A DNA stretch of 37,636 nucleotides from a virus: positions 1 through 37,636 of IMG/VR virus record IMGVR_UViG_3300027704_000064; one strand, written 5' to 3'. Below are positions 368 through 34,632 of the stretch, one piece after another. The position numbers were made by a program, and so were the translations under genes. Numbering within the stretch: position 1 is the first letter of the stretch; each line of letters starts with the position of its first letter. The notes under the pieces were generated by a model. That model saw only the letters and a list, made by a program, of their open reading frames with translations, was not told the DNA's origin and ran no database searches.

Positions 368-546
368 GATGCAACGCATGTAACGCAGCACTGACGGACG
401 CTGAGAGTGTACGTAAGAATAAAACAACAGGCAAATACTACGATTTGTGTAGGGAATGCTACCACGAATATAAAATTAATTTATTATCTATACAAAAGGA
501 CACTTTTGACACACCACCTGTTATACTAAACAAAAGGGAGACATGA
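364..546 (+). CDS. small zinc-ribbon protein, 60 aa
   Basis: Two CxxC pairs (C3-C6 and C29-C32) separated by about 22 residues form a classic four-cysteine zinc ribbon; the intervening sequence is basic (SVRKNKTTGKYYDLCREC). Small zinc ribbons of this kind in phages usually bind nucleic acid or host proteins. The tail after residue 37 (KINLLSIQKDTFDTPPVILNKRET) is less conserved-looking and overlaps a promoter-like element at 499-527, so the DNA does two jobs here. Specific role unknown. Confidence 0.65.
   Translation: MRCNACNAALTDAESVRKNKTTGKYYDLCRECYHEYKINLLSIQKDTFDTPPVILNKRET
499..527 (+). promoter_or_regulatory. phage-type promoter, GACAC-N18-TATACT (site 1)
   Basis: GACAC at 499-503, exactly 18 bases, then TATACT at 522-527, preceded by TGT (extended -10 form TGn). 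Five other sites in the window share this architecture. Predicted start near 534, giving a leader of about 95 bases before the gene at 630. It lies inside the 3' end of the zinc-ribbon gene. Confidence 0.6.
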
Positions 547-585
547 TTGTTATCCTGTTGAACAATTGAAGTAACTACAAAGTAT

Positions 586-615
586 TAAATAATTGAATAA
601 CTGGATTGTACTCAT
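586..615 (+). repeat. 30-bp control repeat, copy 1
   Basis: This 30-base stretch matches 34530-34559 at 26 of 30 positions in direct orientation. The last 15 bases (CTGGATTGTACTCAT) are identical, as are the first 10 (TAAATAATTG). It lies in the 5' leader of the gene at 630, just before the ribosome binding site GGGAG. The region 547-629 otherwise holds no gene. Probably a protein-binding site or a regulatory RNA element. Confidence 0.6.
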
Positions 616-629
616 AAGGGAGAAGTGGC

Positions 630-1022
630 ATGGCATTTAACAACAGGACAAGGGCGGCACAGTTGATTGACTTTGAGGGATTATCCTGGGGGAAGCTCCG
701 GCCTACAGACATAGATTTGTCAATTGACTGGCAAGGCAAGACGTTTGTGTTTGTGGAGTTAAAGAGTGGACATGCAGCCCTGACAGTAGGCCAGCGTATA
801 CACCTAGAGGGGCTAGTTAGGGCGATAATGAGAGGAGGCAAGACAGCCTACGCTATCTACGCGCAGCACGATACGCCCACCACAGAGGACGTTATGGCGA
901 AAGATGCAGTAGTTAATTCGGTATTTAATGGCATGAGTTGGTCAAGAGAGGACACAGGCAGTAGTTTGTATGATATACTAAACAAAATGCACGAAACCCA
1001 CCTAGAGGAGCAGTCAGTATGA
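630..1022 (+). CDS. PD-(D/E)XK-like nuclease family phage protein, 130 aa
   Basis: Shows the layout of a small PD-(D/E)XK fold: TDID around residues 26-29, then a beta strand with FVFVELKSG (E43-x-K45) and a following glutamine in VGQR (Q55), a typical order of D, E-x-K and Q. Many podoviruses carry a similar protein of about 120-135 aa with the signature TDID...F.E.K...GQR. Function unproven; a DNA nuclease or a degenerate DNA-binding relative are both possible. It is preceded by promoter site 1 and contains promoter site 2 near its 3' end. The start at ATG 630 has GGGAG 9-13 bases upstream. The next gene overlaps its stop. Confidence 0.6.
   Translation: MAFNNRTRAAQLIDFEGLSWGKLRPTDIDLSIDWQGKTFVFVELKSGHAALTVGQRIHLEGLVRAIMRGGKTAYAIYAQHDTPTTEDVMAKDAVVNSVFNGMSWSREDTGSSLYDILNKMHETHLEEQSV
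951..979 (+). promoter_or_regulatory. phage-type promoter, GACAC-N18-TATACT (site 2)
   Basis: GACAC at 951-955 and TATACT at 974-979, 18 bases apart, with TGA directly before TATACT and AAAC after it, as in site 1. It lies inside the nuclease-like gene and would start transcription near 986, just upstream of the gene at 1019. Confidence 0.5.
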
Positions 1023-1378
1023 AGACTACAGTAGACCCAAACGGACAGTACAAAGGCATAGCAAAAAATAAGCTAATACAGGCCGCTGGTCTGTTGCCTT
1101 TATTTGCACAAGATGTGTCTATGAGCAAACCTGACGGCATACAGGAGTGTTTCGACATGCTGATGGAGTGCTACGGTTTCGGAGGCAGTCAAGATGGCTC
1201 TGGCTGGGGTACAATAGCCCCTGACACTGGCGTGTATACCTCTGAGCATGAGGGTGACCCCGACATGGACCCTTTGATTAAGTTCGAGATAACACCAGAG
1301 CTAACGTGGTACGTCTACCAGTACGCCATTACAGGCCTCACAGACGGTGATAAGACAATGATAGTGAGGATGGACTAA
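1019..1378 (+). CDS. hypothetical protein, 119 aa
   Basis: Start overlaps the previous stop (ATGA-type). The N-terminal part may be helical (GIAKNKLIQAAGLLPLFAQ); the middle is rich in Gly and Asp (GFGGSQDGSGWG), and the C-terminal part alternates hydrophobic and polar residues (KFEITPELTWYVYQYAITG). Acidic overall. It may be expressed from the promoter-like site at 951. No family recognised. Confidence 0.55.
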   Translation: MKTTVDPNGQYKGIAKNKLIQAAGLLPLFAQDVSMSKPDGIQECFDMLMECYGFGGSQDGSGWGTIAPDTGVYTSEHEGDPDMDPLIKFEITPELTWYVYQYAITGLTDGDKTMIVRMD

Positions 1379-1379
1379 C

Positions 1380-1595
1380 ATGATATGCGAATTCAGTTTT
1401 AAAGGTGCGCCTGTGTACATACGGGCAGCATCAATCATTGCAATTATGCAAGATAGTACATCCGTGGGGAGAACGGTAATATTCACAGAACCACCGCTAG
1501 ACTCTATCATAGTCGATGAGAGTGTAGACGTTGCTTTTGAGGAGTGGTACATTAACCTGAACGAAGCCGATGAAGGGAGTGAAGACGATGACTGA
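1380..1595 (+). CDS. hypothetical acidic protein, 71 aa
   Basis: Starts two bases after the previous stop. The sequence reads as short beta strands (FSFKGAPVYIRAASIIAIMQD; GRTVIFTEPP) and ends in a strongly acidic tail (NEADEGSEDDD). The arrangement 'I.AI......GRTVI......IIVDESVD' recalls small FlbD-like/DUF phage proteins, but the match is weak. The next gene begins inside its last codons. Function unknown. Confidence 0.55.
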   Translation: MICEFSFKGAPVYIRAASIIAIMQDSTSVGRTVIFTEPPLDSIIVDESVDVAFEEWYINLNEADEGSEDDD

Positions 1596-1770
1596 ATACA
1601 CATTGTGGCGTAACGGTAAACTACAGGGAACGTACGACGGCAAACCGGAGGCTATGAACGCATGGGACAAGCTAGTTGGGTACGCTATAGCACCCGACAT
1701 GGTACGCCTGAAGAAAGACGACCACATCTTGTCAGAATACACACCGATGCCAGAGAGGAACTTACGATGA
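1588..1770 (+). CDS. hypothetical protein, 60 aa
   Basis: ATG 1588 is chosen over the in-frame ATG at 1570 because GGGAG at 1574-1578 lies at a proper distance before 1588 and the overlap with the previous gene is then only 8 bases. The protein (MTEYTLWRNGKLQGTYDGKP...) is short, with alternating charged and aromatic residues and no known motif. Next gene overlaps by 4 bases. Confidence 0.55.
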   Translation: MTEYTLWRNGKLQGTYDGKPEAMNAWDKLVGYAIAPDMVRLKKDDHILSEYTPMPERNLR

Positions 1771-1883
1771 GCGTACTAGGCGTAATAGTAACGGGGTGGC
1801 TAATATTTTCTGCTACCCTTATCATAGGAATCTGGACGTACCAATTTGCCCTATTAAAATTTGGGAGAGAAAACGATGAGTGA
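1767..1883 (+). CDS. single-span membrane peptide, 38 aa
   Basis: Too short for most gene callers. ATG 1767 follows GAGAGGA at a reasonable distance and overlaps the preceding stop by 4 bases; the frame ends at 1883. Residues 2-28 are almost all hydrophobic (VLGVIVTGWLIFSATLIIGI...), followed by a short charged tail (KFGRENDE). That gives one transmembrane helix with the tail probably in the cytoplasm. Small early membrane peptides may act in superinfection exclusion or membrane targeting, but no family is recognised. Confidence 0.55.
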   Translation: MSVLGVIVTGWLIFSATLIIGIWTYQFALLKFGRENDE

Positions 1884-2079
1884 TATGCGCGGGTTGTTCG
1901 ATGAAATGTCAGAAGGTGAGAGATGCCACATGGTCAATCTCTTGTACAAAGAGGGCTACGTGCCTGTTAAGCTGAGGAAACTACTAGAGGACGCAGAAGA
2001 AACAAAGCGTGAGTTCGACATAGTGGACAGCGCGTGTGACCATTGGAAACAGACAGCGGAGGACTTAGGCCATGTTTGA
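1876..2079 (+). CDS. hypothetical protein, 67 aa
   Basis: Starts at ATG 1876, overlapping the membrane peptide gene by 8 bases, with GGGAGA at 1863-1868 upstream. Sequence is helical and charged (RKLLEDAEETKREFDIVDSACDHWKQ), likely a small helical bundle or coiled coil. Ends overlapping the acyl-carrier-like gene. Function unknown. Confidence 0.55.
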   Translation: MSDMRGLFDEMSEGERCHMVNLLYKEGYVPVKLRKLLEDAEETKREFDIVDSACDHWKQTAEDLGHV

Positions 2080-2371
2080 AGCAGACGAGCGCGACCCATG
2101 TTGGGATTGCGTGATAGATATACGTAGAGCAGTACGGCTGGACATGGAGGAAGGCGGCTACGAGAGATGGGAGGACGTAGATTCTCTGGGTAAGTTAGAA
2201 ATCCTGGCTGGGATAGAAGACCAGATGGACGTTAACATACCTATAGATGCCGTGGAGCATGTACATAGTTTGGACGAGTTCGTAGAGGCTTGTTATGGCG
2301 TTGTAAGGGCGTACCACTGGGCCTTGTGGTCTAAGGGCATGATACCTAAAACTAAAGGGGAGAGCAAATAA
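2072..2371 (+). CDS. acyl-carrier-protein-like small protein, 99 aa
   Basis: Residues about 14-85 read like an acyl/peptidyl carrier protein. Helix I-like VIDIRRAVRLDMEE is followed by a loop and DVDSLGKLEILAGIEDQM (D37-S38-L39), then VNIPIDAVEHVHSLDEFVEA. In carrier proteins the order is DSL, a helix with E..alle..f, then I.IP......i.Tv.d.v, and the Ser of DSL carries 4'-phosphopantetheine. The conserved GxDSL glycine is Val here (VDSL), and an extra C-terminal segment (YHWALWSKGMIPKTKGESK) is present. No ketosynthase or other fatty-acid enzyme is encoded nearby, so a role would rely on host enzymes. It could also be an unrelated helical protein. Confidence 0.45.
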   Translation: MFEADERDPCWDCVIDIRRAVRLDMEEGGYERWEDVDSLGKLEILAGIEDQMDVNIPIDAVEHVHSLDEFVEACYGVVRAYHWALWSKGMIPKTKGESK

Positions 2372-2565
2372 TGTGGACAATTGAGATAATGAAAGAAGAA
2401 AAGGCATTAGAGCCTTACACATTTCCAGCAGAGGACGCAGAAAGAGCGGTTGAAGCGTATGAGCAGTTCCTCGTATACTTCCGCAAGGACGAGCGCTACA
2501 ATTTACAGTTGTTTTTTAACGACAGTCTAATACTAGAAAAAATTGACGAAAACGAAGATTACTAG
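2371..2565 (+). CDS. hypothetical acidic protein, 64 aa
   Basis: Starts on the last base of the previous stop (TAATG), with GGGGAG upstream. An acidic small protein (MWTIEIMKEEKALEPYTFPAED start; KIDENEDY end) with a likely beta-alpha-beta pattern: WTIEIM strand, AERAVEAYEQFLVYF helix, YNLQLFFNDSLILEKI strands. It is the last gene before promoter site 3. No family recognised. Confidence 0.55.
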   Translation: MWTIEIMKEEKALEPYTFPAEDAERAVEAYEQFLVYFRKDERYNLQLFFNDSLILEKIDENEDY

Positions 2566-2594
2566 GACACAAACCGAATAACCCGTGGTATACT
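2566..2594 (+). promoter_or_regulatory. phage-type promoter, GACAC-N18-TATACT (site 3, replication genes)
   Basis: GACAC at 2566-2570, 18 bases, TGG then TATACT at 2589-2594. It starts at the very end of the upstream gene and would initiate near 2601, giving a leader of about 60 bases for the SSB gene. It probably drives the whole replication module. Confidence 0.65.
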
Positions 2595-2642
2595 AATGAC
2601 TAAGGTGAAGGAGAGGCACCTAATCAACCTCCCCACTTCAAC

Positions 2643-2660
2643 TAATCCTATGGAGGATTA
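2643..2660 (+). promoter_or_regulatory. hairpin enclosing the SSB ribosome binding site
   Basis: TAATCCT (2643-2649) and AGGATTA (2654-2660) are perfect inverted repeats with a 4-base loop ATGG. The Shine-Dalgarno GGAGG (2652-2656) is split between loop and 3' arm, just before ATG 2663. In the transcript this would hide the binding site, which suggests translational control of the SSB, possibly by the protein itself. Confidence 0.5.
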
Positions 2661-2662
2661 AT

Positions 2663-3067
2663 ATGACTGCACAACAAAAACAGCAAGGGTACGTAGCTAA
2701 GGGCGTTGTTGCCTTCTCTAATCTCACCGAGTGTGAGGTGTATCAGGGGCAATCAACAGGACGCTACACTGTAGTGATAACTATGGATGACGCAGAGGCA
2801 TCAAAGTTATCTGACTTCGGTGTTAAGCTCAAAGACTACGAGGGGAAAGCACAGCGTAAGTTTGCTAGCAAGTTCCCTGTCTTGGTAAAGGACTTGGATG
2901 ACAACCCAGTGAGGGGTGAGATACCCTACGGCTCCGAGGTTCGCGTTTTATGGGTGCCTAGTAAAGAGCCACACCCGCAGCATGGTGTCGGTACTTACGC
3001 AGAGCAGGTGCGTGTTGTGACGCTTGCTGAGACTTCACAGGTCGGTGGAGTACCGGAGGACTTCTAG
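2663..3067 (+). CDS. single-stranded DNA-binding protein, T7 gp2.5-like role
   Basis: 134 aa, first gene after promoter site 3 and directly upstream of primase-helicase. It contains VFQG-like YQGQSTGRYTVVITMD, GVKLKDYEGKAQRKF, GEIPYGSEVRVLW and a C-terminal acidic tail ending in PEDF. Podoviral SSBs of this type coat single-stranded DNA through an OB fold and use the acidic tail with terminal Phe to contact the polymerase, as T7 gp2.5 does. The assignment rests on motif memory, length, tail and context. Its ribosome binding site sits in a perfect hairpin, suggesting regulated translation. The primase-helicase start overlaps its stop. Confidence 0.7.
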   Translation: MTAQQKQQGYVAKGVVAFSNLTECEVYQGQSTGRYTVVITMDDAEASKLSDFGVKLKDYEGKAQRKFASKFPVLVKDLDDNPVRGEIPYGSEVRVLWVPSKEPHPQHGVGTYAEQVRVVTLAETSQVGGVPEDF

Positions 3068-4680
3068 TGTCTTATCCTGACTACGCTAAAGCAACGGTTG
3101 TGGGGCATAAGCCCTGCACCGTTTGTTCTTCTAGTGACAACGTAGCGGTGTATTCAGACGGTGGTGAGCATTGCTTTACCCCTGACTGCACCTACCACAT
3201 AAACGGCCAAGGACGGCCTAACAGGGACACAAGTATGTCAACACCCAGTACCAAATTAGATATGAACGGCACCGTGGCCGCTATACCAGACAGGCGTATC
3301 AGTAAAGCAACGTGCGCCAAGTTTGGGGTGATAGTTGAATACGGTAAAGATGGGGGCATAGATAGCCACCACTACCCATACTACAACACAAAGACTGGTG
3401 ACATAACGGCCAGCAAAAGGAGGATGTGTGCGGAGAAAAGATTTTCGTGGACGGGTGACAGAACAGACACAGGATTATTTGGACAAAATTCCTGCAAGGG
3501 TTCGGGAAAGTATCTTACAATCACGGAGGGGGAGCTTGACGCCCTCGCAGTATCTGAGATGTTCGACAATAAATGGGACGTTGTTAGCCTCAAGGACGGG
3601 GCGCAGTCAGCAGCCAGAGATGTCAAGTCACAACTGGAGTGGCTTGAGGGGTATGAGCAAATTGTTCTCTGCTTCGATTCTGACAAGGCAGGAAAGATTG
3701 CTGTTGAAGCGGTCAGAGATTTATTCAGCCCGAACAAAGTCAAAGTTATAGAGTTACCTGTCAAAGATGCTGGCGTCATGCTGGAGAATGGGCGGGTGCG
3801 GGACTTTGTTAAGGCGTTCTGGGACGCTAAGAGCTACAGCCCAGCAGGTATCGTTAAGGCTGACGAAACGTGGACTGACGTGCTGGCGTACCGAGACACG
3901 CCCTCTACTCCGTATCCGTGGGATGGCCTGAACGAGCTACTGCTAGGACAGCGCACTAAAGAAGTTAATATCTGGGCGGCAGAGACAGGCGTGGGCAAGT
4001 CGCAAACGATGCGTGAGATTATACACCACATCATCACAACTTCTGACCAGCAGGTAGGGTGCCTGATGCTAGAGGAGTCTGTCGCTAAGAGTATGCTGGG
4101 GTGGATGAGTTTCCACGCAGGGCGTCCATTGCACAGGGAGCTAGAGAACATACCAGAGGAGGAGCTGCGTAGGTACTGGGAGAAAGCCAGCGCAGGTAAT
4201 CGCTTTGTATTGTTAGACCACAAAGGATGGCAGTCTGACATTGAGGTTCTCAAGTCGCGTGTGCGCTATATGGCGAAGGCTTTAGGATGCAAGACCATCA
4301 TACTAGACCACCTCCACATCGCGCTCTCAAGCGTAGCTGGTGCCTCTGGTGACTGGTCAGGCATTGATGAGCTGGTGACGCAGTTTACAGTGCTGGCCCA
4401 GGAATGTGACATTTGCATACACATCGTCAGTCACGTAAGCGCCTCGCGCAGTCTACGTGGTTCAAAAGGAATTGAGAAGCTGGCTGACGCTGTTATTTTT
4501 TTAGAGCGCGACAAGCTCAACGAAGACGCAGAGATTGCTAACACTACGTCTGTGATTGTATCCAAGAATAGGTTTGTAGGAGACACAGGCACAGCGTGTT
4601 ACCTACGCTACGATAAATTTACAGGCCGGATGACGGAATGTCCTAAGCCTGACGCACTAGGAGTAGTGGATGAGTTCTGA
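3067..4680 (+). CDS. primase-helicase (T7 gp4-like)
   Basis: 537 aa, close to T7 gp4 (566). GTG start overlapping the SSB stop by one base, with GGAGG at 3054-3058. N-terminal zinc site C17-x2-C20 and C36-x4-C41 for primer-site recognition; TOPRIM region with TEGELDALA near residue 152 and CFDSDKAG near 200; DnaB-type helicase domain with Walker A AETGVGKS near 306, Walker B-like TIILDHLH near 411, and HIVSHVSASRSLRGS near 455. Ends in DEF, an acidic-aromatic tail likely to dock on the polymerase. It unwinds DNA and lays primers at the fork. A strong internal start at 3235 may give a shorter helicase-only form, as in T7. Confidence 0.93.
   Translation: MSYPDYAKATVVGHKPCTVCSSSDNVAVYSDGGEHCFTPDCTYHINGQGRPNRDTSMSTPSTKLDMNGTVAAIPDRRISKATCAKFGVIVEYGKDGGIDSHHYPYYNTKTGDITASKRRMCAEKRFSWTGDRTDTGLFGQNSCKGSGKYLTITEGELDALAVSEMFDNKWDVVSLKDGAQSAARDVKSQLEWLEGYEQIVLCFDSDKAGKIAVEAVRDLFSPNKVKVIELPVKDAGVMLENGRVRDFVKAFWDAKSYSPAGIVKADETWTDVLAYRDTPSTPYPWDGLNELLLGQRTKEVNIWAAETGVGKSQTMREIIHHIITTSDQQVGCLMLEESVAKSMLGWMSFHAGRPLHRELENIPEEELRRYWEKASAGNRFVLLDHKGWQSDIEVLKSRVRYMAKALGCKTIILDHLHIALSSVAGASGDWSGIDELVTQFTVLAQECDICIHIVSHVSASRSLRGSKGIEKLADAVIFLERDKLNEDAEIANTTSVIVSKNRFVGDTGTACYLRYDKFTGRMTECPKPDALGVVDEF
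3235..4680 (+). other. possible internal translation start of the primase-helicase (short helicase form)
   Basis: An in-frame ATG at 3235 (residue 57) follows AGGGA (3223-3227) with a 7-base gap, just after the zinc-binding domain ends. The product would have 481 aa and lack the zinc domain. T7 gene 4 makes such a short form (4B) from an internal start at a matching position. Confidence 0.4.
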
Positions 4681-6367
4681 GGTAGTCTTTGATATAGAAA
4701 CAAACGGCTTAACACCTGACAAGATATGGTGTGTGGCTGATAGTACGGGATTCTTCTCTACAGAGGAATACTCATTCAACGATGAGGATATGTATTATGG
4801 ACACAATTCTATTGGATTTGACCTCCCTGTTCTTGCTAATATATGGGGGCTTTGTGGTGGGCGCAGTAATCAACGAGACACGCTTGTACTATCCAGACTG
4901 GCTAATCCTAGCAGGGCTGGTGGGCATAGTCTTGATGCTTGGGGTCGTCTTCTGGGGTTTCCCAAAGGAGAGCATTCCGACTGGGACAGATACTCTCCCG
5001 AAATGCAGCGATACTGTGAGCGAGATGTGCAACTTACCATATCCGTACTTGCCGAAGTAAAGAAAGAGCTGGTGGGATTTTCTGAGCGTTCTATAGAGTT
5101 AGAGCATCAGGTAGCTTGGATTGTACAGGAGCAGGTAAACAATGGGTGGCTTCTAAACCAAGAGGCTGTCTTCATGTTATTAGCAGAGTTAAAGGAGAAG
5201 AAAATTGAACTGGAAGATACTGTACGCACTACGTTTACGCCAAGATGTAAAGGTGGAAAAGAAGTTACCCCTAGAATCAACAAAGATGGTACGCTCTCCG
5301 CTGTGGGCCTCAAGTATTATGGCAGAGATTGGCATAGGGATATTGGTGGGGTTCACACTCGCGTGGATTTTCCAGAATTTAACCTAGGCTCTCGTAAGCA
5401 GATAGGTGAGTACCTAATTGCGTTAGGCTGGACGCCTGCCAAGTATACAGACAAGGGCGCACCTATTGTGTCTGAGGTTGTTCTTAAAGACGTAGAGGGC
5501 ATACCAGAGTGTACCTTGATAGCTGACTACCTGACTGTCGTTAAGCGCATAGCAATGGCACAGTCATGGTTAGACAAGGTAGACGCAGACAGCCGAGTAC
5601 GTGGTCAGGTTAACTCCTGCGGGGCTGTCACTGGACGCATGACACACTACAGCCCTAACATGGGACAAGTCACCGCCGGGAGCAAGATATACGGCTCTGA
5701 GATGCGTGACTGCTGGGTTGTTGCAGACGGGTACAAGTTGGTAGGCATGGACGCCTCTGGATTAGAGCTACGGATGTTAGCGCATTACATGAACGATGCT
5801 GCTTATTCACAGGAGATATTAAATGGAGACATTCACACAGCAAACCAAAGAGCCGCTGGCTTATCTGACAGAAATACAGCAAAGACTTTCATTTACGCTT
5901 TCCTGTATGGAGCTGGAGATGCAAAAATTGGGAGTATTGTCGGGGGAGGTGCGAAAAGTGGTAGAGAACTTAAAAGAAAGTTCCTTGCAAACACTCCCGC
6001 CCTCGCGCAACTCAGGGATAGAGTTAGCGCGGCTGCTAAAAGAGGTTGGCTACGGGGACTGGACGGTAGACGAATTGCTGTCAGAAGCCCCCATGCTGCT
6101 CTCAATACTCTGCTTCAAGGCGCAGGAGCTGTAGTTATGAAGCAGGCGCTAGTTAACCTTCACAAGTTTGCTACGTCACAGAAATTAGACTTTAAGATTG
6201 TCGGCAACATTCACGATGAAATACAGACGGAAGTTTCGGGGAAGGACGCAGAACGTTTTGGCAAGTTAGCAGTGTACGCCATGACAAAAGCAGGAGAAGA
6301 TTTTAACCTGACTATTCCGCTTGCGGGAGAGTATAAAATTGGAAACTCATGGAAGGAGACACACTAA
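4670..6367 (+). CDS. polA: DNA polymerase, family A (PolA type)
   Basis: 565 aa replicative polymerase. The 3'-5' exonuclease domain shows DIET at residues 8-11, HNSIGFDLP near 45, and YCERD near 114. Polymerase motif A is DASGLELR near 361, motif B RNTAKTFIYAFLYG near 398, and motif C NIHDEI near 511. The residue equivalent to E. coli Phe762 is Tyr (KTFIY), as in T7, a state linked to fast synthesis by virulent phages. It is about 140 aa shorter than T7 gp5, so a thioredoxin-binding insert is probably missing or reduced. The start overlaps primase-helicase by 11 bases. Partner proteins SSB, primase-helicase and exonuclease share acidic tails. Confidence 0.95.
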   Translation: MSSEVVFDIETNGLTPDKIWCVADSTGFFSTEEYSFNDEDMYYGHNSIGFDLPVLANIWGLCGGRSNQRDTLVLSRLANPSRAGGHSLDAWGRLLGFPKGEHSDWDRYSPEMQRYCERDVQLTISVLAEVKKELVGFSERSIELEHQVAWIVQEQVNNGWLLNQEAVFMLLAELKEKKIELEDTVRTTFTPRCKGGKEVTPRINKDGTLSAVGLKYYGRDWHRDIGGVHTRVDFPEFNLGSRKQIGEYLIALGWTPAKYTDKGAPIVSEVVLKDVEGIPECTLIADYLTVVKRIAMAQSWLDKVDADSRVRGQVNSCGAVTGRMTHYSPNMGQVTAGSKIYGSEMRDCWVVADGYKLVGMDASGLELRMLAHYMNDAAYSQEILNGDIHTANQRAAGLSDRNTAKTFIYAFLYGAGDAKIGSIVGGGAKSGRELKRKFLANTPALAQLRDRVSAAAKRGWLRGLDGRRIAVRSPHAALNTLLQGAGAVVMKQALVNLHKFATSQKLDFKIVGNIHDEIQTEVSGKDAERFGKLAVYAMTKAGEDFNLTIPLAGEYKIGNSWKETH

Positions 6368-7579: not shown

Positions 7580-7949
7580 TAATCAAAAGTACAGGAGTAA
7601 GTTAGAGGCTCTGGTGGCCTCTTTGTTAGGCCCTACGTGGCGCTACGAGCCTTTTAAGGTGGCTTACGTGACGCACAGGAACTATACGCCTGACTTTGTG
7701 TACACTACTAAGAATATGCACATCTTAGTGGAAGTTAAAGGATTCTTCCGAGTAGGTGACACACAGAAGTACAAAGCAATTCGAGATGCACTCAAGGAAA
7801 ACCAGGAGCTAGTCTTTTTTCTACAATCTGCGAAAACAAAAGTACGCAAAGGAGCTAAGATGAACATGGGACAATGGTGTGAGAAAGAAAGTATTAAGTG
7901 GTTTGAAAGCGTAGAAGATTTAAAGGAGTACGCCGATGGACACTTTTGA
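7572..7949 (+). CDS. endonuclease I, Holliday junction resolvase (T7 gp3-like)
   Basis: 125 aa. YRSKLE near the N-terminus, NYTPDF (D41), ILVEVKG (E54-x-K56) and following DTQKY match phage T7 endonuclease I, whose catalytic residues are Glu20, Asp55, Glu65 and Lys67. It resolves branched DNA before packaging and degrades host DNA. The length is slightly below T7 gp3 (149 aa). The start overlaps the HNH gene by 8 bases without a clear ribosome binding site, so translation is probably coupled. Confidence 0.85.
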   Translation: MINNQKYRSKLEALVASLLGPTWRYEPFKVAYVTHRNYTPDFVYTTKNMHILVEVKGFFRVGDTQKYKAIRDALKENQELVFFLQSAKTKVRKGAKMNMGQWCEKESIKWFESVEDLKEYADGHF

Positions 7950-8094
7950 GGAACTGTGTGTTAAACTAATGGTTAAGAGCGACATTGAGGACATAATTGA
8001 TTTGTTACAACTTACACCAGAAGACCTAGTGAGGCGGTTTGAAGACCGACTTGAAGAAAACATAGTAGCAATACGGGAGTTCTTAAATGACTGA
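7936..8094 (+). CDS. hypothetical acidic protein, 52 aa
   Basis: Starts at ATG 7936 within the end of the endonuclease I gene, after AAGGAG at 7923-7928. Reads MDTFEELCVKLMVKS, then LLQLTPEDLVRRFEDRLEENI, ending FLND. Acidic and helical. Similar short proteins (E-L-L-x-L-T-x-E-D-L-V-x-R-F pattern) occur beside endonuclease genes in podoviruses, with no known function. Promoter-like site 4 lies in its first codons. The stop overlaps the next start. Confidence 0.65.
   Translation: MDTFEELCVKLMVKSDIEDIIDLLQLTPEDLVRRFEDRLEENIVAIREFLND
7939..7967 (+). promoter_or_regulatory. weaker phage-type promoter, GACAC-N18-TAAACT (site 4)
   Basis: GACAC at 7939-7943, 18 bases, TGT, then TAAACT at 7962-7967, followed by AATG. 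One base differs from the TATACT of the other sites. It could raise expression of DUF3310, RNR and MazG genes. It sits in coding sequence, so chance similarity is possible. Confidence 0.4.
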
Positions 8095-23281: not shown

Positions 23282-24640
23282 TCACGCTTCTAACGCCTCA
23301 ACTCTATCTGTTAACTCTTGGTTAGCTTGTGTAAGCTCCTTAATAGACTCGACAAGCAGGCCGACCATGTTTCCATATCCTACAGCGAGGTAGCCGTCTT
23401 CGTCTTCGATAACAGCTTCGGGGAGTACAGCTTGTACTTCCTGTCCTATCAGACCAGTGGCTACTGTGCCGTTCTCTATGTACGAGAAGGTTATGCCGTT
23501 GAGGGTGTTTACCTTAGCGAGTGCGCCAGTGATAGGCTCTACGTTCTCCTTCAGGCGTATGTCAGAAGAAGACCCCATCGAACCTGTGTGTAACCAGTTA
23601 CCAGTATTACCTGCCATGATGAGAGTGCCGCCTCCTGACAAAAGCCTAATGTCGCCCGCTGTCACAGTGTTCCGTTCAGCATCGGTAGCGTTAATGATTA
23701 TGCTCTTAGTGTGAGAATTACTCTCTCCTGCTCTGTTTCCTATTGCTATGGCTCCTGTACTTTGACTTATCTCTCCTGCTTTGTATCCTATTGCTATGGC
23801 TCCTGTACCTTGTGTATCCTCTCCTGCTTGGAATCCAATTGCAATTGCGCGATGCCCCTGCGTAGTGTTACCTGCCTTAGTACCAATAGATACCCCATCC
23901 AGTCCCTGTGTAACTTCTCCTGCCTGGTATCCAATAGCAATGGAGGTAGTGCCTTGCGTAGTTTGTCCTGCTTGGTATCCAACAGCAATGCATCCGCCAC
24001 TACTGCCTTGCGTAGTTTCTCCTGCTTGGTATCCAATAGCAATGGAGTCAACGCTTTGCGTAGTTTGTCCTGCTTCGTATCCAATAGCAATGGAGGTACG
24101 GCCTTGCGTAGTTTCTCCTGCTTTAGTACCAATAGCAACGGCTAAAGTTGCTTGCGTAGTTTTTCCTGCTCTATTACCAATAGCGACAGCAAAACTGCCT
24201 TGCGAAGTAACTCCTGCACCCGGCCCAGCTCGAAAGCTATCAAGCCCAGCGCCTTTGCTTAGGAGGCTTCCAGTTGCTTCAAGGGTTGTGAACTTTCCTG
24301 AACCTTGTGAAGCCACTCCAATAGAAGTTGCAACTAAAGTTGTAAAAGCACCTGTGGATGGAGTAGACGCGCCTATTGTGGTTCCGTTTATTGTACCTGC
24401 CACAAGTGTCGCGGTTCCAGTAAACGTGTTGTTTCCAGTAAACGTGTTGTTTCCAGTAAACGTGTTGTTTCCTGTCCATGTGTTGTCTAGAGGAAGAAGA
24501 CTATCGTTTAAACTAATAACACCACCAGCCGTAGACCCTACCCAGAGTTTTCCGTCTGTAGTGTTTACAGCTAATTCTCCGACAGCTAAAGATGCAGGTG
24601 TTCCTGTTGCATTGTTTTTTGTTTGAATTACAACGGCCAT
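23282..24640 (-). CDS. tail fibre/spike with repeat shaft and S74 chaperone tip
   Basis: 452 aa. Residues 1-50 are the attachment part; 53-77 carry four NNTFTG-type units; 149-310 hold ten repeats of about 16 residues with core AIAIGYQAGETTQG, resembling YadA-type trimeric head/stalk repeats. From 357 on is a Peptidase_S74 intramolecular chaperone: SSDIRLKEN (S359-D360 the expected self-cleavage site, Lys364 nearby), then GLIGQEVQAVLPE and a C-terminal coiled coil. Such chaperones trimerise fibres and are then cut off. The protein probably binds the host surface. It follows the adhesin gene at 24653 by 12 bases, with AAGGAG upstream. Confidence 0.85.
   Translation of the reverse strand: MAVVIQTKNNATGTPASLAVGELAVNTTDGKLWVGSTAGGVISLNDSLLPLDNTWTGNNTFTGNNTFTGNNTFTGTATLVAGTINGTTIGASTPSTGAFTTLVATSIGVASQGSGKFTTLEATGSLLSKGAGLDSFRAGPGAGVTSQGSFAVAIGNRAGKTTQATLAVAIGTKAGETTQGRTSIAIGYEAGQTTQSVDSIAIGYQAGETTQGSSGGCIAVGYQAGQTTQGTTSIAIGYQAGEVTQGLDGVSIGTKAGNTTQGHRAIAIGFQAGEDTQGTGAIAIGYKAGEISQSTGAIAIGNRAGESNSHTKSIIINATDAERNTVTAGDIRLLSGGGTLIMAGNTGNWLHTGSMGSSSDIRLKENVEPITGALAKVNTLNGITFSYIENGTVATGLIGQEVQAVLPEAVIEDEDGYLAVGYGNMVGLLVESIKELTQANQELTDRVEALEA
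23711..24196 (-). repeat. array of ten ~48-bp repeats in the fibre gene
   Basis: Ten in-frame copies coding for units of about 16 residues with the core A-I-G-x-x-A-G-x-x-T-Q. Copy 4 carries a three-residue insertion (SSGG). High identity between copies allows recombination to lengthen or shorten the shaft. Confidence 0.85.
24417..24488 (-). repeat. 18-bp tandem repeats in the fibre gene
   Basis: Three exact 18-base copies at 24417-24470 and a fourth changed copy to 24488 encode NNTFTG units (TGNNTFTG...). Exact DNA identity suggests recent duplication. Confidence 0.85.
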
Positions 24641-28257: not shown

Positions 28258-28277
28258 GTTATATGACTCCTAAAAGG

Positions 28278-29081: not shown

Positions 29082-29100
29082 AATTAAATCTCCGGTCCAT

Positions 29101-29343
29101 TTAGGAATTGTCGGCTTTCTTTTCTAATGCAATTTTTTGTTCCCGATTCTTTACCCATTTATCGTGCGCTGTAGGAAAACCAGCGGCATCGTTTCCGGGT
29201 AAAACAAATTTAGGGATGTGTTGCACTTTATTAGCAAGTTTGTTACAGGTAAGGCAATCTACTGTTACAGTCTCGTTATCTAATAGTTGGTCGTACATGG
29301 TTGTACCGCAAAAGGTACAATAAAAATCATTTAGCACTTTCAT
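29101..29343 (-). CDS. zinc-ribbon protein between portal and scaffold, 80 aa
   Basis: CxxC pairs C9-C12 and C30-C33 form a zinc ribbon at the N-terminus (FYCTFCGTTM; VDCLTCNKLA), followed by KFVLPGNDAAGFPTAHDKWV, a pattern found in phage proteins of unknown function at this position. A head-assembly accessory is possible. It overlaps the previous gene by 4 bases. Confidence 0.65.
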   Translation of the reverse strand: MKVLNDFYCTFCGTTMYDQLLDNETVTVDCLTCNKLANKVQHIPKFVLPGNDAAGFPTAHDKWVKNREQKIALEKKADNS

Positions 29344-29591
29344 ACATCTAACGCCTCCTCCTCAGCCCTTAAAAGGGTTTCCTGAAAACAAAGCATTTTG
29401 TCAATAGTGTTTATTTGACCTTTACGAAAATGTAGGTTATCGTTATTTGATATGTCTCTAATATCACCTATAAAAGCAGTTTGGTCTTCTAGCTCAAGCA
29501 GTAGTATGCTCCAGCCTTTAGTCTTAAACATCTCTTTCATGTAGGCGAAGTAGTCTTCATCCGTAAGGTCTTCTACTTCTTTATTTTCCAT
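29340..29591 (-). CDS. conserved head-gene-cluster protein, 83 aa
   Basis: First gene after promoter site 5, with AAGGAGG upstream. Acidic and helical: EDYFAYMKEMFKTKGWSILL, then NLHFRKGQINTIDKMLCFQE. Many marine podoviruses carry a protein with F.T.GW..L......F..G......LHFRKGQ...I..... between portal and scaffold, without known function. Likely a head-assembly factor. Confidence 0.6.
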   Translation of the reverse strand: MENKEVEDLTDEDYFAYMKEMFKTKGWSILLLELEDQTAFIGDIRDISNNDNLHFRKGQINTIDKMLCFQETLLRAEEEALDV

Positions 29592-29638
29592 AGTATCCTC
29601 CTTGCCAAAGGGTATGAGGATATACAGGTATTACACCC

Positions 29639-29667
29639 AGTATACCACAGTTTACTTAAAATGTGTC
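29639..29667 (-). promoter_or_regulatory. phage-type promoter, GACAC-N18-TATACT (site 5, capsid genes)
   Basis: On the minus strand GACAC (29667-29663), 18 bases, TGG and TATACT (29644-29639). It lies just after the stop of the 44-aa gene and 48 bases before the next start. Predicted start near 29632. It would boost scaffold and capsid expression; together with the terminator at 27221 it isolates a capsid transcript. Confidence 0.65.
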
Positions 29668-29668
29668 T

Positions 29669-29803
29669 TTATTTTTTAGTTTTTTCTTGTTTTTGTTCTA
29701 CACTGTCTAAACGAGCAGTCATGTCTTTAAGTTGGACATGAATCTCCTCTAAAAGACCGTTAACTTCTTCTAAAATCTTGTTTAAATCACCACGCATAAG
29801 CAT
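29669..29803 (-). CDS. small coiled-coil protein, 44 aa
   Basis: ATG 29803 after GAGGGA, stop at 29669. Nearly all helical with heptad-like leucines/isoleucines (LNKILEEVNGLLEEIHVQL; TARLDSVEQKQEKTKK). It lies right after portal and ends two bases before promoter site 5. Possibly a small oligomerisation or head-completion peptide. Too short for usual gene callers. Confidence 0.6.
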   Translation of the reverse strand: MLMRGDLNKILEEVNGLLEEIHVQLKDMTARLDSVEQKQEKTKK

Positions 29804-29817
29804 AAGTATATCCCTCT

Positions 29818-31875
29818 TTAGTTATTTCTAGTTTGTTGAGACTGAGATAGTCGTATTGCTGAGTCCAGATTTATCCGTTTCTCCTCTATGTCCAGTTTAC
29901 GTTCTTTAAGCTGAGTGTCTGCAATTTGTAGCCTTTGTGTAAATTCTTCTTTAGTTACACCTGCTTTAACGTCAGTAACAGCGTCAATTCGCTCATTTTC
30001 AATCTTTCTAGGCTCTAAGTCAGCTTCAACAGTGTATTTATTAGCTCTGGCGTTGCTTTCAGCGGCTTGCGCTTTAAGAACCTCAATTTGCTGAACTTGC
30101 ATTTGCATCTGCATTTCGTGCATCTGCTTTTCCATTTCTACTTTTTCTGGGTTAGGTTCTGCTGCTTTCTTAAGGTCTGCTTTTAAAGCCTCTCCGTTGT
30201 CTAAGTTCATGTTGTCAACAATTGCCTCTACAATGCTCCCGTACATAGGGGATTGGTCTGAAGTAGTCTGAAGCAACTGTACTAGCTGTGAGACTTGATA
30301 TTCTTTGCCCATAAGCCCTAAAGTGGACTCTGCAAGGAACTTATAGTCCTTTACGGGGTAATTATCAGGGTCAAACTGCATGTATCTGTGGGCAGCTTTA
30401 GTGACAAAGGGTAACCAAAATCCGTCTTGAAAGCTAATTAAAGTACGCTTTTGACGCTTAATAATGCTCCCTAAAGCCATAGAAGTAGCTCCAGTCTTGT
30501 TGTTACTACCCATTCCTTGTGCAAATTCAGCCCCGTCTACTGCTCCGGTAGACTGTTGTACCATTTTTTGTAGTTCTGCGGCTTGTGAGAAGGTTATTTG
30601 ATTTACGTTACCAAAGTTAAATTCTTGTAGGACTTCTCTAGGTGGTCCGTTAGTCAATATCATTTTACCGGGACGAACTACGGGTTGATGGCCTCTAGGA
30701 ATGCGTGTAGCGTCCATAGCGAGCATTGGGTGGATAGTTAGGGCCAGAGCATCAATACGCGCCCTAATCTCCGCGTCAAGGGCTTTCTGGCTGTTGTAGC
30801 CCTTCTCACAGACCCCACGGCCCCAGAATAAACCTGGAACAATATCCCACTGAAAAGACACTACGGGCCTGTCTTGCATCATGTAGGGGTTTGTTTCTGC
30901 TTTTAACAGGTTAGTTTCGTTAGCTATTACTACTACTGCCTCAACCCAATAAGAATCGTTTTCAGGGTCTTGTTCTATAGGAGAACCATCTAAGTTAACA
31001 ACCTCAGATAAATCATCCTCACCGTCTTCTGGCGCATTAGCTTGGTCTAAAAGGTGTCTTGGGACAAGGCCCCAATACTTCAAAAGACGTACTTTGTCTT
31101 CATCTGCTGGTGAGTCTAATTCTGGGTTAGGCTCAAGGTCACTGTCGTCTGCTGCTGTGCCTATGTGACAGTCTTTGTATATGCCTTGTTCTTGTAGCTG
31201 TTGTACGTAGTGTAGGGGTACAAACTCATCTGAGGCACAACCGTGTGCTGTATCAACAGAAGTAGCTACGGGGTCAATTAAGAAGTTTTTAGCTTGTATT
31301 GGTTTTAATTTAACTACTGTCCTGTCTACTATCTGTACGCCTATCATAGACAACTGGCCGTCCATTGCAGGTTCTGTAGCAGGAGCCATTTCTTTTACTT
31401 CTTCTAAACAGACTTCAGCAATGCCTGTACCGTAGACCGCTGCGTTAATAAGGACTTCTGAACAGGCTTGTCTAACTTTTTGTAGTCTAAAGTCTTCTTG
31501 TAGTTTGTTCTGTAAGAAAGCAACGTCATTTGGGTCTTGGTCCATTGAGTCATCACGAATACTAAATTCCTGTCCGTGACCAAAGGTAGCTTCTTCAATG
31601 TCACTAACACAAGACTCTACTGCTTGCTGTAGTGCAGGAGTAACAATCTTAGACCTTTCAGTAGTGCGTATGGAGTCTTCTTGTCTCCAGATGCCACGCC
31701 ACAAGCTGTAGTATTCATCCCACTGAGAAAAGTAGTTAGCTTCTGTAAAGTCTGACCACTCCTGTGTTTTACCTAATACGTAAGACTGTAAGGAGCTGCT
31801 AGACTCAAACATGGGGTCGTGATAGCTATCATCTGTTGACTTATCAACTATTGTGGCGTTGTTGTTGTATGCCAT
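29818..31875 (-). CDS. portal (head-tail connector) protein
   Basis: 685 aa. N-terminal half: SLQSYVLGKTQEWSDFTEAN, WRQEDSIRTTERSKIVTPAL; middle: LFWGRGVCEKGYNSQKALDA and RIDALALTIHPMLAMD, which fit portal wing and stem motifs of podovirus connectors. The last 130 residues form a long charged coiled coil (EMEKQMHEMQMQMQVQQIEV) extended beyond T7 gp8 (536 aa). It forms the ring through which DNA enters and leaves. Position after terminase supports this. GGAG precedes the start. Confidence 0.85.
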   Translation of the reverse strand: MAYNNNATIVDKSTDDSYHDPMFESSSSLQSYVLGKTQEWSDFTEANYFSQWDEYYSLWRGIWRQEDSIRTTERSKIVTPALQQAVESCVSDIEEATFGHGQEFSIRDDSMDQDPNDVAFLQNKLQEDFRLQKVRQACSEVLINAAVYGTGIAEVCLEEVKEMAPATEPAMDGQLSMIGVQIVDRTVVKLKPIQAKNFLIDPVATSVDTAHGCASDEFVPLHYVQQLQEQGIYKDCHIGTAADDSDLEPNPELDSPADEDKVRLLKYWGLVPRHLLDQANAPEDGEDDLSEVVNLDGSPIEQDPENDSYWVEAVVVIANETNLLKAETNPYMMQDRPVVSFQWDIVPGLFWGRGVCEKGYNSQKALDAEIRARIDALALTIHPMLAMDATRIPRGHQPVVRPGKMILTNGPPREVLQEFNFGNVNQITFSQAAELQKMVQQSTGAVDGAEFAQGMGSNNKTGATSMALGSIIKRQKRTLISFQDGFWLPFVTKAAHRYMQFDPDNYPVKDYKFLAESTLGLMGKEYQVSQLVQLLQTTSDQSPMYGSIVEAIVDNMNLDNGEALKADLKKAAEPNPEKVEMEKQMHEMQMQMQVQQIEVLKAQAAESNARANKYTVEADLEPRKIENERIDAVTDVKAGVTKEEFTQRLQIADTQLKERKLDIEEKRINLDSAIRLSQSQQTRNN

Positions 31876-31896
31876 ACGGGTAAATCTCCGGTTACT

Positions 31897-32121
31897 CTAG
31901 GGTTTAGTAATGTACGTGTATTCTTTAATTACAGTTAATGTTGCGTTTGCTTGAACTAGCATTAGGGCGTTAGTGTCAAAATCAAAATGTTGAATTGTAC
32001 CTGCTAACGTATTTCCACCAGCACCATGCCCAAAATGTACGGTTACGGCATCACCCATATTAATACTGTTTGCAGTAGGGTTTAAATTATTTCTAAAGCC
32101 TGCTTCTAATACACTAGCCAT
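31897..32121 (-). CDS. hypothetical protein between terminase and portal, 74 aa
   Basis: Starts two bases after the terminase stop region, with AGGAT upstream. Beta-rich (AVTVHFGHGAGGNTLAGTIQ; ALMLVQANATLTVIKEYTYI), with no clear motif. Its position between terminase and portal suggests a head-related role. Unrecognised. Confidence 0.6.
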   Translation of the reverse strand: MASVLEAGFRNNLNPTANSINMGDAVTVHFGHGAGGNTLAGTIQHFDFDTNALMLVQANATLTVIKEYTYITKP

Positions 32122-32124
32122 CTA

Positions 32125-33390
32125 TTAATATCCTGTCAAATCGTCTATGGGTTCCCAGCCTTCTAAGTCATCTATGGCTGCTCCGTAGGCTGGTTGGGAA
32201 AGCTGCTCAATGTACGCTAAAGCGTCTATAAGGTCATCGTGTGTTAGTCTGCTAGGAAACTGAAAAAGCTGGTCCATAAAGGTACTATTCCATTCGCCTA
32301 CGTTTAACGTAATGCGTTTGTTCTCCATAAGCCCCTGTAAGGCCCAAACAACACGGTCTGTTTTTTTCTTATTTCCGTGGCTTAATAGCTCTATTCGGAA
32401 GTATCTATTTAATTTACGTTGTAGGTCTGTGAGAGGAGACATAACTGCTTGTTGAGCAATTCCTTTTTCGATGCCCACCGAGCGTGGTTTATAGTTTTGA
32501 ACCACCTTGAAGATGCGGTTAGCGGTTTCGTTGAGGTCCCAGCGCCCGTGGACAATTTCGTGTACGAACCAGTCCCCTTCGGGATTAACGCCAACAACGG
32601 CGATAGCAGTTTCGTCAAGTCGGGATTTTGTAGTTTTTCCTCCAACGTCTTCAAATCCCGCAAGGTCGCAGGCGATATAGTAGTCGTGACCAGAAAGTGG
32701 CTTTCCACAAGGTTCCTCCCTAAATTGTAACCATTCTTCTCGAAATAGCTCTGAGTCTTTAGCCTCAAACTTAGCTAAGAATTCCTGACGGAAAGCAAAG
32801 CTACTCATTGATTTCTTAGCGGCGTTAATTTCTTCCGGGTCTAAGATGGGGTTATCGTAGCTTGTTAGGTGCCACGCTTTCCAATCTTCATCTCCTGATA
32901 GTTCCGCGTATTGGTATAAGTCCCAGAAGTGATTTCTTCCGGTGGGAGTACCAATAAACACAGCGTGACCCTTTTGGTCAGCTAGGGCAGGCCGTAGTAC
33001 CTCCTCCCAAACAGAAGGCTTCATGCCTGCGTATTCGTCTAATACTACAAATTTAAGAGAGACTCCTCGCATGGTGTCAGGGCGGTCTGAACCCTTGAGG
33101 CTGATTGTTGCACCATTAATGAGCGTAAGCTGTAGATTGTTGATATGTGCTTGTTTAACAACAGGTCTACCAATGTCCATAAGCACTGACCACATAACGT
33201 CTCTTGCTTGTCCTTGGGTCTGTGCGACATAGAATACGTGGCCTTTCTCTGCCTGCAACGCTTCAACAAGTAGTCTGTAAGCGGCGTAGAGGGACTTCCC
33301 GCACCTTCGCCCAGCAGCAATAACTTTAAATCTTGTTTCATCTGCCCATACCTCTTGCTGCCACGGTAACAGCTTTATGTCTAATTCCAT
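32125..33390 (-). CDS. terL: terminase large subunit
   Basis: 421 aa. ATPase with Walker A GRRCGKS (27-33), Walker B FVVLDE (114-119), and motif III-like FIGTPTG near 150. The nuclease part carries YYIACDLAGFED near 208-219, later IGIEKG-like VGIEKGIAQQ and HDDLIDALAY near 386, giving the Asp residues of the RNase H fold. It cuts and pumps DNA into the head. Shorter than T7 gp19 (586 aa) but similar to compact terminases of marine podoviruses. Start overlaps the preceding stop by one base (TAATG). Confidence 0.92.
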   Translation of the reverse strand: MELDIKLLPWQQEVWADETRFKVIAAGRRCGKSLYAAYRLLVEALQAEKGHVFYVAQTQGQARDVMWSVLMDIGRPVVKQAHINNLQLTLINGATISLKGSDRPDTMRGVSLKFVVLDEYAGMKPSVWEEVLRPALADQKGHAVFIGTPTGRNHFWDLYQYAELSGDEDWKAWHLTSYDNPILDPEEINAAKKSMSSFAFRQEFLAKFEAKDSELFREEWLQFREEPCGKPLSGHDYYIACDLAGFEDVGGKTTKSRLDETAIAVVGVNPEGDWFVHEIVHGRWDLNETANRIFKVVQNYKPRSVGIEKGIAQQAVMSPLTDLQRKLNRYFRIELLSHGNKKKTDRVVWALQGLMENKRITLNVGEWNSTFMDQLFQFPSRLTHDDLIDALAYIEQLSQPAYGAAIDDLEGWEPIDDLTGY

Positions 33391-33557
33391 TATTTCTTTG
33401 CGTTCTTTTTAGCAGCCGCTGACAAGTCTTTAAAGTGAAATAGCTTTACGCTAGTCTTGCCGTGAGTTTTTCCACTATGTAACGAACCATCAGGCATCTT
33501 GTGGGTTCCTCCAGAGTGAGAGTCACCATTTTTTTTGTAGTGCTTTACACCTTTCAA
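33390..33557 (-). CDS. second half of a split small protein (GTHKMPDGSLHSGKTH family), 55 aa
   Basis: Open in the +1 frame relative to the 28-aa gene just upstream; the only near start is TTG 33557 without clear ribosome binding site. Core GVKHYKKNGDSHSGGTHKMP and GSLHSGKTHGKTSVKLFHFK is a pattern of small phage proteins, normally preceded by a Lys/Pro-rich segment in the same frame. That segment is present here in the other frame. Either a frameshift joins them, or the gene is broken, or TTG is used. The stop overlaps the terminase start. Confidence 0.5.
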   Translation of the reverse strand: MKGVKHYKKNGDSHSGGTHKMPDGSLHSGKTHGKTSVKLFHFKDLSAAAKKNAKK

Positions 33558-33558
33558 T

Positions 33559-33645
33559 TTAGTAACTACCCAATTTCTTTTTCTTTTTGGGTTTAGGCTT
33601 AGGTGTAGACTTAGCGGGGGTCTTTTTAGCAGCGCTACATTTCAT
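33559..33645 (-). CDS. first half of a split Lys/Pro-rich protein, 28 aa
   Basis: ATG 33645 overlaps the upstream stop (ATGA). Encodes MKCSAAKKTPAKSTPKPKPK followed by KKKKLGSY and a stop at 33559. The A-rich run coding for the lysines (AAAAAGAAAAAG) is slippery-looking; moving +1 there continues into the conserved second half. A single protein of about 80 residues is the probable functional product. Confidence 0.5.
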   Translation of the reverse strand: MKCSAAKKTPAKSTPKPKPKKKKKLGSY

Positions 33646-33899
33646 TTTTTTATTCCTTTAGTTCGTAAAAGTCTTTGAGCTTTGTCCCTTTCTTTATCTG
33701 TTATACCACTACCCGAACCTTTAGCTAAAATGCTTTCTAAAGTTTTTCGGTCTGCTGTTGACAGTCTGGGTGGTCCAGCCATTTTTGATTTAGTAGACTG
33801 TGGTGATTTTGATTTAGTAGACTGTGGTGATTTTGATTTAGTAGAAGTTGAAACTTTATTTCGAGCGGCTGCTCTTTGTTTGTCAGTCATGTTGGGCAT
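33642..33899 (-). CDS. basic repeat protein, 85 aa
   Basis: Contains tandem units STKSKSPQ, STKSKSPQ, STKSKMAG encoded by a 24-bp DNA repeat, in a Ser/Lys-rich arm (RNKVSTSTKSKSPQ), then a helical C-terminus (LSTADRKTLESILAKG; TDKERDKAQRLLRTKGIKK). Basic, DNA-binding-like. Lies between terminase genes. Function unknown. GGAG precedes the start. Confidence 0.55.
   Translation of the reverse strand: MPNMTDKQRAAARNKVSTSTKSKSPQSTKSKSPQSTKSKMAGPPRLSTADRKTLESILAKGSGSGITDKERDKAQRLLRTKGIKK
33787..33845 (-). repeat. 24-bp tandem repeat inside the basic repeat gene
   Basis: Two exact 24-base copies (33787-33810, 33811-33834) and an 11-base partial copy encode STKSKSPQ units. In-frame length change is possible. 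Confidence 0.9.
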
Positions 33900-33909
33900 T
33901 GTTTACTCC

Positions 33910-34041
33910 TTATCTATTGTTTCCTACAAGAATATTCCACAAGTGAATAATCTCTGTTTGTACATCTTCTAAACTCATTGTAAGCTCAGGGTTTGCTTGT
34001 CTTATCATACTAATAAACTGTTCATTGTCTATAGGTGGCAT
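33910..34041 (-). CDS. hypothetical small protein, 43 aa
   Basis: ATG 34041 with GAGGAG upstream; stop at 33910, 10 bases before the next start. Reads MPPIDNEQFISMIRQANPEL then TMSLEDVQTEIIHLWNILVG. Helical, acidic, lies between the TerS-like gene and the basic repeat gene. No family recognised. Too short for many gene callers. Confidence 0.6.
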   Translation of the reverse strand: MPPIDNEQFISMIRQANPELTMSLEDVQTEIIHLWNILVGNNR

Positions 34042-34046
34042 ACTAT

Positions 34047-34412
34047 TTACTCCTCATCTATTGTCTCAAAATCCCCTTCAAGGGACTCATTAGGGGACGA
34101 TAACTCAACTCCAGGAACCCCAGAAATGTTTACAGTAATAGCACTTCTAGTAGTAGTACCCGCTAACTTGTCAAAACCACTAACAGGTAAGATACGGTCT
34201 ACTATCAATTTCCATGCGGCTGATTGGCTTTTATGGTCATCGTTTAAAGCAGCATCAAAGATAGTTTCTAGGACTTTAGCAGACTTAGGGGATTTTAACA
34301 TCCTTTGTCTATATTCTTCCATTATGCCCCTGTCTTCTTTAGGGCGTCCTACTGACTTCTTAGGTGGAGTTTTCTTAGGTCTACCTACCGGATTACCACT
34401 CTTTTTTGTCAT
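34047..34412 (-). CDS. probable terminase small subunit
   Basis: 121 aa. N-terminal basic arm with two AT-hook-like units (VGRPKK and VGRPKE), a helical core (EEYRQRMLKSPKSAKVLETI; HKSQSAAWKLIVDRILPVSG) and an acidic C-terminus (NESLEGDFETIDEE). Small terminases often show this order: DNA-binding arm, oligomer helices, acidic tail to TerL. First gene of the leftward structural operon, downstream of promoter site 6. Assignment by position and sequence pattern, not by a strong motif. Confidence 0.65.
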   Translation of the reverse strand: MTKKSGNPVGRPKKTPPKKSVGRPKEDRGIMEEYRQRMLKSPKSAKVLETIFDAALNDDHKSQSAAWKLIVDRILPVSGFDKLAGTTTRSAITVNISGVPGVELSSPNESLEGDFETIDEE

Positions 34413-34448
34413 ATATTTGGTTAACCTTTTAGTTAATGTTGATTTACA

Positions 34449-34487
34449 CTAGAGAGATAGCAGGAGGGGAGTACCTAAAGGGGCCAT
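34449..34487 (-). CDS. possible 12-residue leader peptide upstream of TerS
   Basis: ATG 34487 has AGGAG (34499-34495) at a 7-base distance and reads MAPLGTPLLLSL then stop, within the leader of the TerS transcript. CAGGAG and CTCCTG flank it as an inverted repeat (34500-34495 and 34466-34461), which may cover the ribosome binding site. Could tune expression of the structural operon; chance occurrence is possible. Confidence 0.3.
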   Translation of the reverse strand: MAPLGTPLLLSL

Positions 34488-34529
34488 GAGGAATCTCCTG
34501 TTGTTTAATTATGTTACCACGTTTAGTTG

Positions 34530-34559
34530 TAAATAATTGTAATCCTGGATTGTACTCAT
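34530..34559 (+). repeat. 30-bp control repeat, copy 2
   Basis: Direct repeat of 586-615 (26 of 30 identical; last 15 bases CTGGATTGTACTCAT exact). It lies between promoter site 6 and the TerS gene, in antisense orientation to that transcript. Confidence 0.6.
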
Positions 34560-34603
34560 TTGGTACTGTTGCTTAACTCTGTGTGTCTATAGGTTACTTA
34601 TTT

Positions 34604-34632
34604 AGTATACCACACTTTTTAACAAAAGTGTC
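34604..34632 (-). promoter_or_regulatory. phage-type promoter, GACAC-N18-TATACT (site 6, structural operon)
   Basis: On the minus strand GACAC (34632-34628), 18 bases, TGG, TATACT (34609-34604), AAAT. Predicted start near 34597, leader about 185 bases before TerS, including the 30-bp repeat and a short leader frame. It would drive the leftward structural operon. Confidence 0.65.

Follow-up and report, generated by a model that had tools for sequence, protein, structure and literature searches.

The locus described here raises the question of whether a series of promoter-like elements, in which an ordinary -10 hexamer is joined to an unusual upstream box, forms a promoter class of a phage, and which factor might read this box. 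The window, i.e. the whole stretch of 37,636 bases that was analysed, is the virus record IMGVR_UViG_3300027704_000064, both ends of which are open. Matches were obtained for a T7-like polymerase, a primase-helicase, a Cas4-type exonuclease, a ribonucleotide reductase (RNR), TerL, the portal and the capsid. The probable TerS gave a DUF5681 match under the family cut-off (E 1e-4), and the gene at the SSB position had no family match of its own in the family profile search. A comparison of the first 12 kb with phage isolates gave no match at the DNA level; with RNR as the criterion, Lentibacter phage ICBM2 and other roseophages come closest among the isolates (~60%). The Cobavirus group, which includes ICBM2, was reported to be without RNA polymerase (PMC6918029). 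The search for a host by means of the MCP in genome contigs delivered relatives of 57% at best, located in mixed MAG bins, so that no host can be assigned.

Anatomy of the six sites

Six GACAC-N18-TAWACT sites had been listed in the initial annotation, and all of them were found at the coordinates, strands and 18-bp spacing given there, each with TG before the hexamer (Table 1). The random-sequence control gave far fewer matches, with a mean of 0.05 and a maximum of 1 in 100 dinucleotide shuffles compared to 6 in the window. Between spacings 11 and 29, exact GACAC combined with TG.TATACT (up to one mismatch) occurs at 18 alone, six times. The TGn in front of TATACT or TAAACT at 6/6 sites makes these extended -10 elements, most commonly in the form TRTGn followed by TATACT (or TATAMT). 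No TTGACA-like -35 element lies at 16-18 bp: GACACW at 17 bp matches TTGACA in only 2-3 of 6 positions, and GACA, which lacks the TT, fits a -35 element only if the spacer is taken as 19 bp. In the window and its relatives the box is longer than GACAC, with the consensus AGGACAC. Few copies of AGGACAC exist besides the promoters, so the idea of a site dispersed across the whole genome was rejected. A literature search returned no paper joining GGACAC, promoter and phage.

Table 1. Predicted promoters and associated genes, in positions of the window
Position	Strand	Feature	Context
499..527	+	AGGACAC-N18-TATACT, predicted promoter	3' end of ORF 364-546, upstream of ORF 630
951..979	+	AGGACAC-N18-TATACT site	within ORF 630-1022, 40 nt upstream of ORF 1019
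2566..2594	+	AGGACAC-N18-TATACT, predicted promoter	upstream of ORF 2663 (SSB position) and the primase-helicase/polymerase genes
2663..3067	+	SSB-position gene	before primase-helicase and DNA polymerase; homologs in many relatives
3067-4680	+	primase-helicase	between SSB-position gene and DNA polymerase
4670-6367	+	DNA polymerase	behind primase-helicase
7939..7967	+	GACAC-N18-TAAACT site	start of ORF 7936-8094 (MDTFEELCVKL)
29639..29667	-	AAGACAC-N18-TATACT, predicted promoter	between portal and ORF 29591; small genes, then scaffold and capsid
32125-33390	-	TerL	directly behind probable TerS
34047..34412	-	probable TerS, 121 aa	first gene downstream of the 34632 promoter, directly before TerL
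34604..34632	-	GGGACAC-N18-TATACT, predicted promoter	upstream of TerS; start of the leftward late operon (TerS, TerL)
35140..35167	+	TTGACA-N16-TATAAT, canonical sigma70 promoter (12/12 match)	before the rightward early genes

All six sites face genes on their own strand, as had been claimed, and the downstream ORFs confirm this. Two of them, 951 and 7939, had been placed in coding regions; this is correct, and site 499 has to be added as a third one, leaving 2566, 29667 and 34632 as intergenic sites. The suspicion that the coding-region sites are due to chance is weakened for 7939, where codon conservation exceeds the needs of the protein: in L252 and L254 (L numbers denote loci of relatives) the GAC and TGTGTTAAACT codons are unchanged at a background codon identity of 0.31-0.36 in RNR. 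Although its -10 element (TAAACT) is the weakest among the six and the site is absent in L091 and L088, this excess over background makes a weak real site possible, and 7939 may act as a weak internal promoter. Site 951 is a doubtful promoter; it was not seen in L091, the sole relative compared, and ranks with 7939 as the least supported site. For site 499 a counterpart is present in L090 at 7716, in the 3' end of the homologous gene. At the same position L176 and L296 carry TTGACAC with a partial -10 element, which looks promoter-like despite differing amino acids.

Orthologous sites and canonical counterparts in relatives

Relative loci were collected with the capsid, helicase, TerL and RNR proteins as queries. 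The matrix scan of relatives suggested in the initial annotation was carried out with five of the window sites and scored against shuffles. Orthologous AGGACAC sites, which mostly exceed the shuffles, were detected in L091, L009, L174, L007 and L011. They are located at the SSB position (L091 ~9240, the ortholog of 2566 with the same gene downstream), at TerS (L091 3063 minus, L009 4082 and L174 649) and at the capsid operon (L009 8186, L174 5071 and, with AAGACAC or TGGACAC as the box, L007 292 and L011 1488). L362 has the capsid site of L174, and L380 has a site between helicase and polymerase. Taken together, orthologs of 29667 are present in L170, L007, L174, L362, L011 and L009, and those of 34632 in L171, L009/L334 and L174. 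The spacers within these orthologous sites have diverged; the genes downstream (TerS, the gene before scaffold/capsid, SSB) are the same.

All 5-mers at spacings 10-24 in front of extended -10 elements were ranked without bias, and GACAC at 18 came out on top in each set: 6 observed against 0.03 expected in the window, 11 against 0.06 in the clade when the window was left out, and 17 against 0.09 for the two together. In the sister groups TTGAC at 18 either led or was surpassed solely by CTTGA at 19, a 5-mer that overlaps it (39 vs 0.58 and 46 vs 0.43 expected). Counts are given here as the safer statement, since binomial values assume independent contexts and the loci are related. Two pattern scans of viral contigs each yielded ~40 stretches, nearly all with one match; besides known clade contigs, the new contigs of the second scan included only L362 and L380 as clear relatives. 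The orthologous positions and the 5-mer enrichment in relatives strongly support the interpretation that the family represents promoters and is not a product of chance.

In the wider relatives the same positions, upstream of the same genes, are occupied by ordinary sigma70 promoters, TTGAC(T/A)-17-TATAAT with TRTG. The peak of TTGAC likewise lies at 18 bp and the TRTGnTATAMT part is shared, but TTGAC(A/T) stands where the clade of the window has AGGACAC. No N18 site of the clade has TT before GACA, which bears out the initial remark that GACAC deviates from the sigma70 -35 consensus. Among distinct upstream regions, 43 of TTGAC type, 17 bp from the -10 element, were counted at TerS (including L090, which reads TAGACA) versus 4 with GACAC-N18; at the capsid operon the ratio is 54 to 4. 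The SSB position is more varied in relatives, with TTGCAA, GTGACA and others. In Lentibacter phage ICBM2 (Cobavirinae), TTGACA-17 sites are combined with TGn -10 elements. Thus, as read from the sequences, the -10 half of these predicted promoters is kept and the -35 half is exchanged at several unlinked positions: a group of marine phages has put AGGACAC for TTGAC at several separate putative later-gene promoters. To our knowledge, it is uncommon in nature that a phage clade alters the -35 specificity of several promoters and leaves the -10 element as it was.

Phylogeny gives a divided picture. The four labelled GACAC-type rows group together in the TerL tree (100/83 support), with L090 next and the canonical L330 outside. 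The helicase tree mixes GACAC-type and TTGAC-type phages, with L380 outside the group of the window, L088, L089 and L090, which makes recombination or repeated change likely. L090 carries TAGACAC or CTGACAC at 16-17 bp from the -10 element (TAGACA/CTGACA at 17-18 bp) and can plausibly be regarded as an intermediate between the TTGACA and the AGGACAC forms. For the route of the change two readings are open: GACAC may have replaced TTGAC in place, or the GACA core may have shifted outward by two bases. As canonical sister phages and an intermediate are at hand, the evolution of such a promoter takeover could be followed.

Candidate readers of the AGGACAC box

At the early promoter (35140), which is without a TG element, the window has kept TTGACA, so that TTGACA and AGGACAC promoters coexist in one genome. 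Its counterparts read TTGACA in L171 and TAGACA in L330, both with the same spacing as in the window, and TTGACA-18 in L335. From the map we infer an order of switching in which the canonical class is used early and the AGGACAC class later. AGGACAC at the later promoters together with one canonical early promoter suggests an agent, made during infection, that alters how the host RNA polymerase reads promoters, and a change in a shared trans-acting reader would be expected to exchange the box in parallel at several unlinked promoters.

The best explanation, with a probability of about 0.5, is sought in post-early promoters with a divided recognition. Host sigma70 RNA polymerase would open them through the extended -10 element, and the -35 contact would be supplied or altered by a candidate phage protein specific for AGGACAC, either DNA-binding or modifying sigma region 4. 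We count for such a factor the fixed spacing, the orthologous sites, the canonical early promoters, the grouping in the TerL tree and the lack of an RNA polymerase or sigma match in the ORFs scanned; against it count that no gene for it was found, the exclusion of the early protein 36873-37184 as sole determinant (see below), the intermediates in L090 and the mixed helicase tree. The initial annotation had proposed an activator or a changed RNA polymerase. On the sequence evidence the first part, extended to a sigma-remodelling factor, fits best; the second is disfavoured, since no RNA polymerase was recognised in the ORFs scanned and the -10 element is the ordinary extended one of the host. 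More tentatively, this might be a new form of sigma appropriation, in which a predicted phage protein unrelated to MotA and AsiA redirects sigma70 RNA polymerase to AGGACAC and the steps TTGACA, TAGACAC and AGGACAC can be read in living relatives.

Scans against PHROGs and Pfam, which covered part of the ORFs of a record open at both ends, gave no match to an RNA polymerase, a sigma factor, MotA or AsiA. A conserved early protein of 103 aa (36873-37184), found in 17 viral loci, has neither a PDB nor a Pfam match, and its structure prediction without alignment, at a pLDDT of 39.5, was of no use. It was rejected as sole determinant because L330 carries an 87% identical copy beside promoters of TTGACA type. 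As to genes exclusive to GACAC-type phages, the only one among the early genes is ORF 630-1022, whose product we take, judged by eye, to be nuclease-like, and it was set aside; a few further ORFs are confined to these phages, and their absence elsewhere may reflect locus coverage. A factor reading AGGACAC would be a concrete target for discovery.

In T4 middle promoters the host -10 element, often extended, is kept, a MotA box takes the place of the -35 element, and AsiA, which contacts DNA between -32 and -37, remodels sigma region 4 (PMC6755090, PMC2988021). The family described here shares the host-type -10 element, the phage-specific box at fixed distance, the retained -35 element of early promoters and, among the ORFs scanned, the lack of a phage RNA polymerase; the kept -10 and replaced -35 halves are seen in sequence only. 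However, AGGACAC lies at about -37 to -31, 18 bp from the -10 element, whereas the MotA box is of TTTGCTTtA type, centred near -30 and 12±1 bp from the -10 element (PMC2988021). No MotA or AsiA homolog was recognised among the ORFs scanned, and relatives hold a canonical -35 element in the same slot. Because box, distance and known factors differ, a working similar to that of T4 middle promoters is proposed, not membership in this class. The late promoters of the phiEco32-like phage 7-11 (PMC8948821) are likewise two-part, precede later genes at places on the map that are conserved, and occur alongside early promoters of host sigma70 type. In contrast to the sigma70-like -10 element found here, both of their halves are changed (GTAAtg-16-aCTA) and read by a phage sigma factor, and no sigma factor gene was recognised here among the ORFs scanned.

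Extended -10 promoters are able to function without a good -35 element. The sites might thus belong to the ordinary sigma70 promoters of the host, their -35 element (nnGACA, 19-bp spacer) being weak and drifted, with recognition carried by the strong extended -10 element and no phage factor involved. The forms in L090 and L088 (TAGACAC, CTGACAC or TTGACAC, 16-17 bp from the -10 element) form a bridge to GACAC-N18 and make such a gradual drift conceivable, and since the early promoter lacks TG, a difference between the two classes may need no factor. We consider this unlikely, although it deserves serious attention, because a 7-base AGGACAC fixed at exactly N18 at unlinked sites, TT never being present at N18, is not what drift would lead one to expect, and because a perfect TTGACA early promoter exists in the same genome. 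A concerted change would also result from a switch to a host with its own sigma factor, primary or alternative, preferring AGGACAC-N18-TATACT; these same genomes have retained TTGACA-16/18-TATAAT at their early promoters and the extended -10 element is unchanged, which renders this distinctly improbable.

It is very improbable that a dimeric regulator binds a dyad in the spacer (ACAC...GTGT), be it an activator of MerR type or a repressor at its operator. The reading of GACA as a -35 element gives the 19-bp spacer of MerR-type promoters (PMC11049809), ACACTTTTgttaAAAAGTGT is present at 34604-34632, and like arms occur at TerS of L090 and L009 and at the capsid site of L011; but column composition accounts for the pairing seen across the dyad, and the dyad is absent at 499, 951 and 2566. 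Chance matches and coding coincidences, finally, could be invoked for three of the six sites, which lie in reading frames, above all for 951. As a source of 2566, 29667 and 34632 chance is already refuted, and in view of the shuffle counts, the single spacing, the matrix matches and the 5-mer enrichment it is almost certainly not the explanation of the family.

Further observations

Ahead of the early promoter a 26-nt repeat of CTAACACAGAACACAATAGAATACAA type occurs three times at 34890-35105, spaced 88 and 102 nt. A short palindrome-like element, AGGACACAAGTGTGGG, lies upstream of the same promoter at 34938-34953, and GGACACAAGTGTGGGCC recurs in the corresponding region of L091. L330 is a mosaic phage, with early genes 87-94% identical to those of the window and a backbone of lower identity (TerL 65%, helicase 43%). 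Tandem 48-nt (16-residue) repeats are located on the minus strand at 23724-24217, within ORF 23282-24640.
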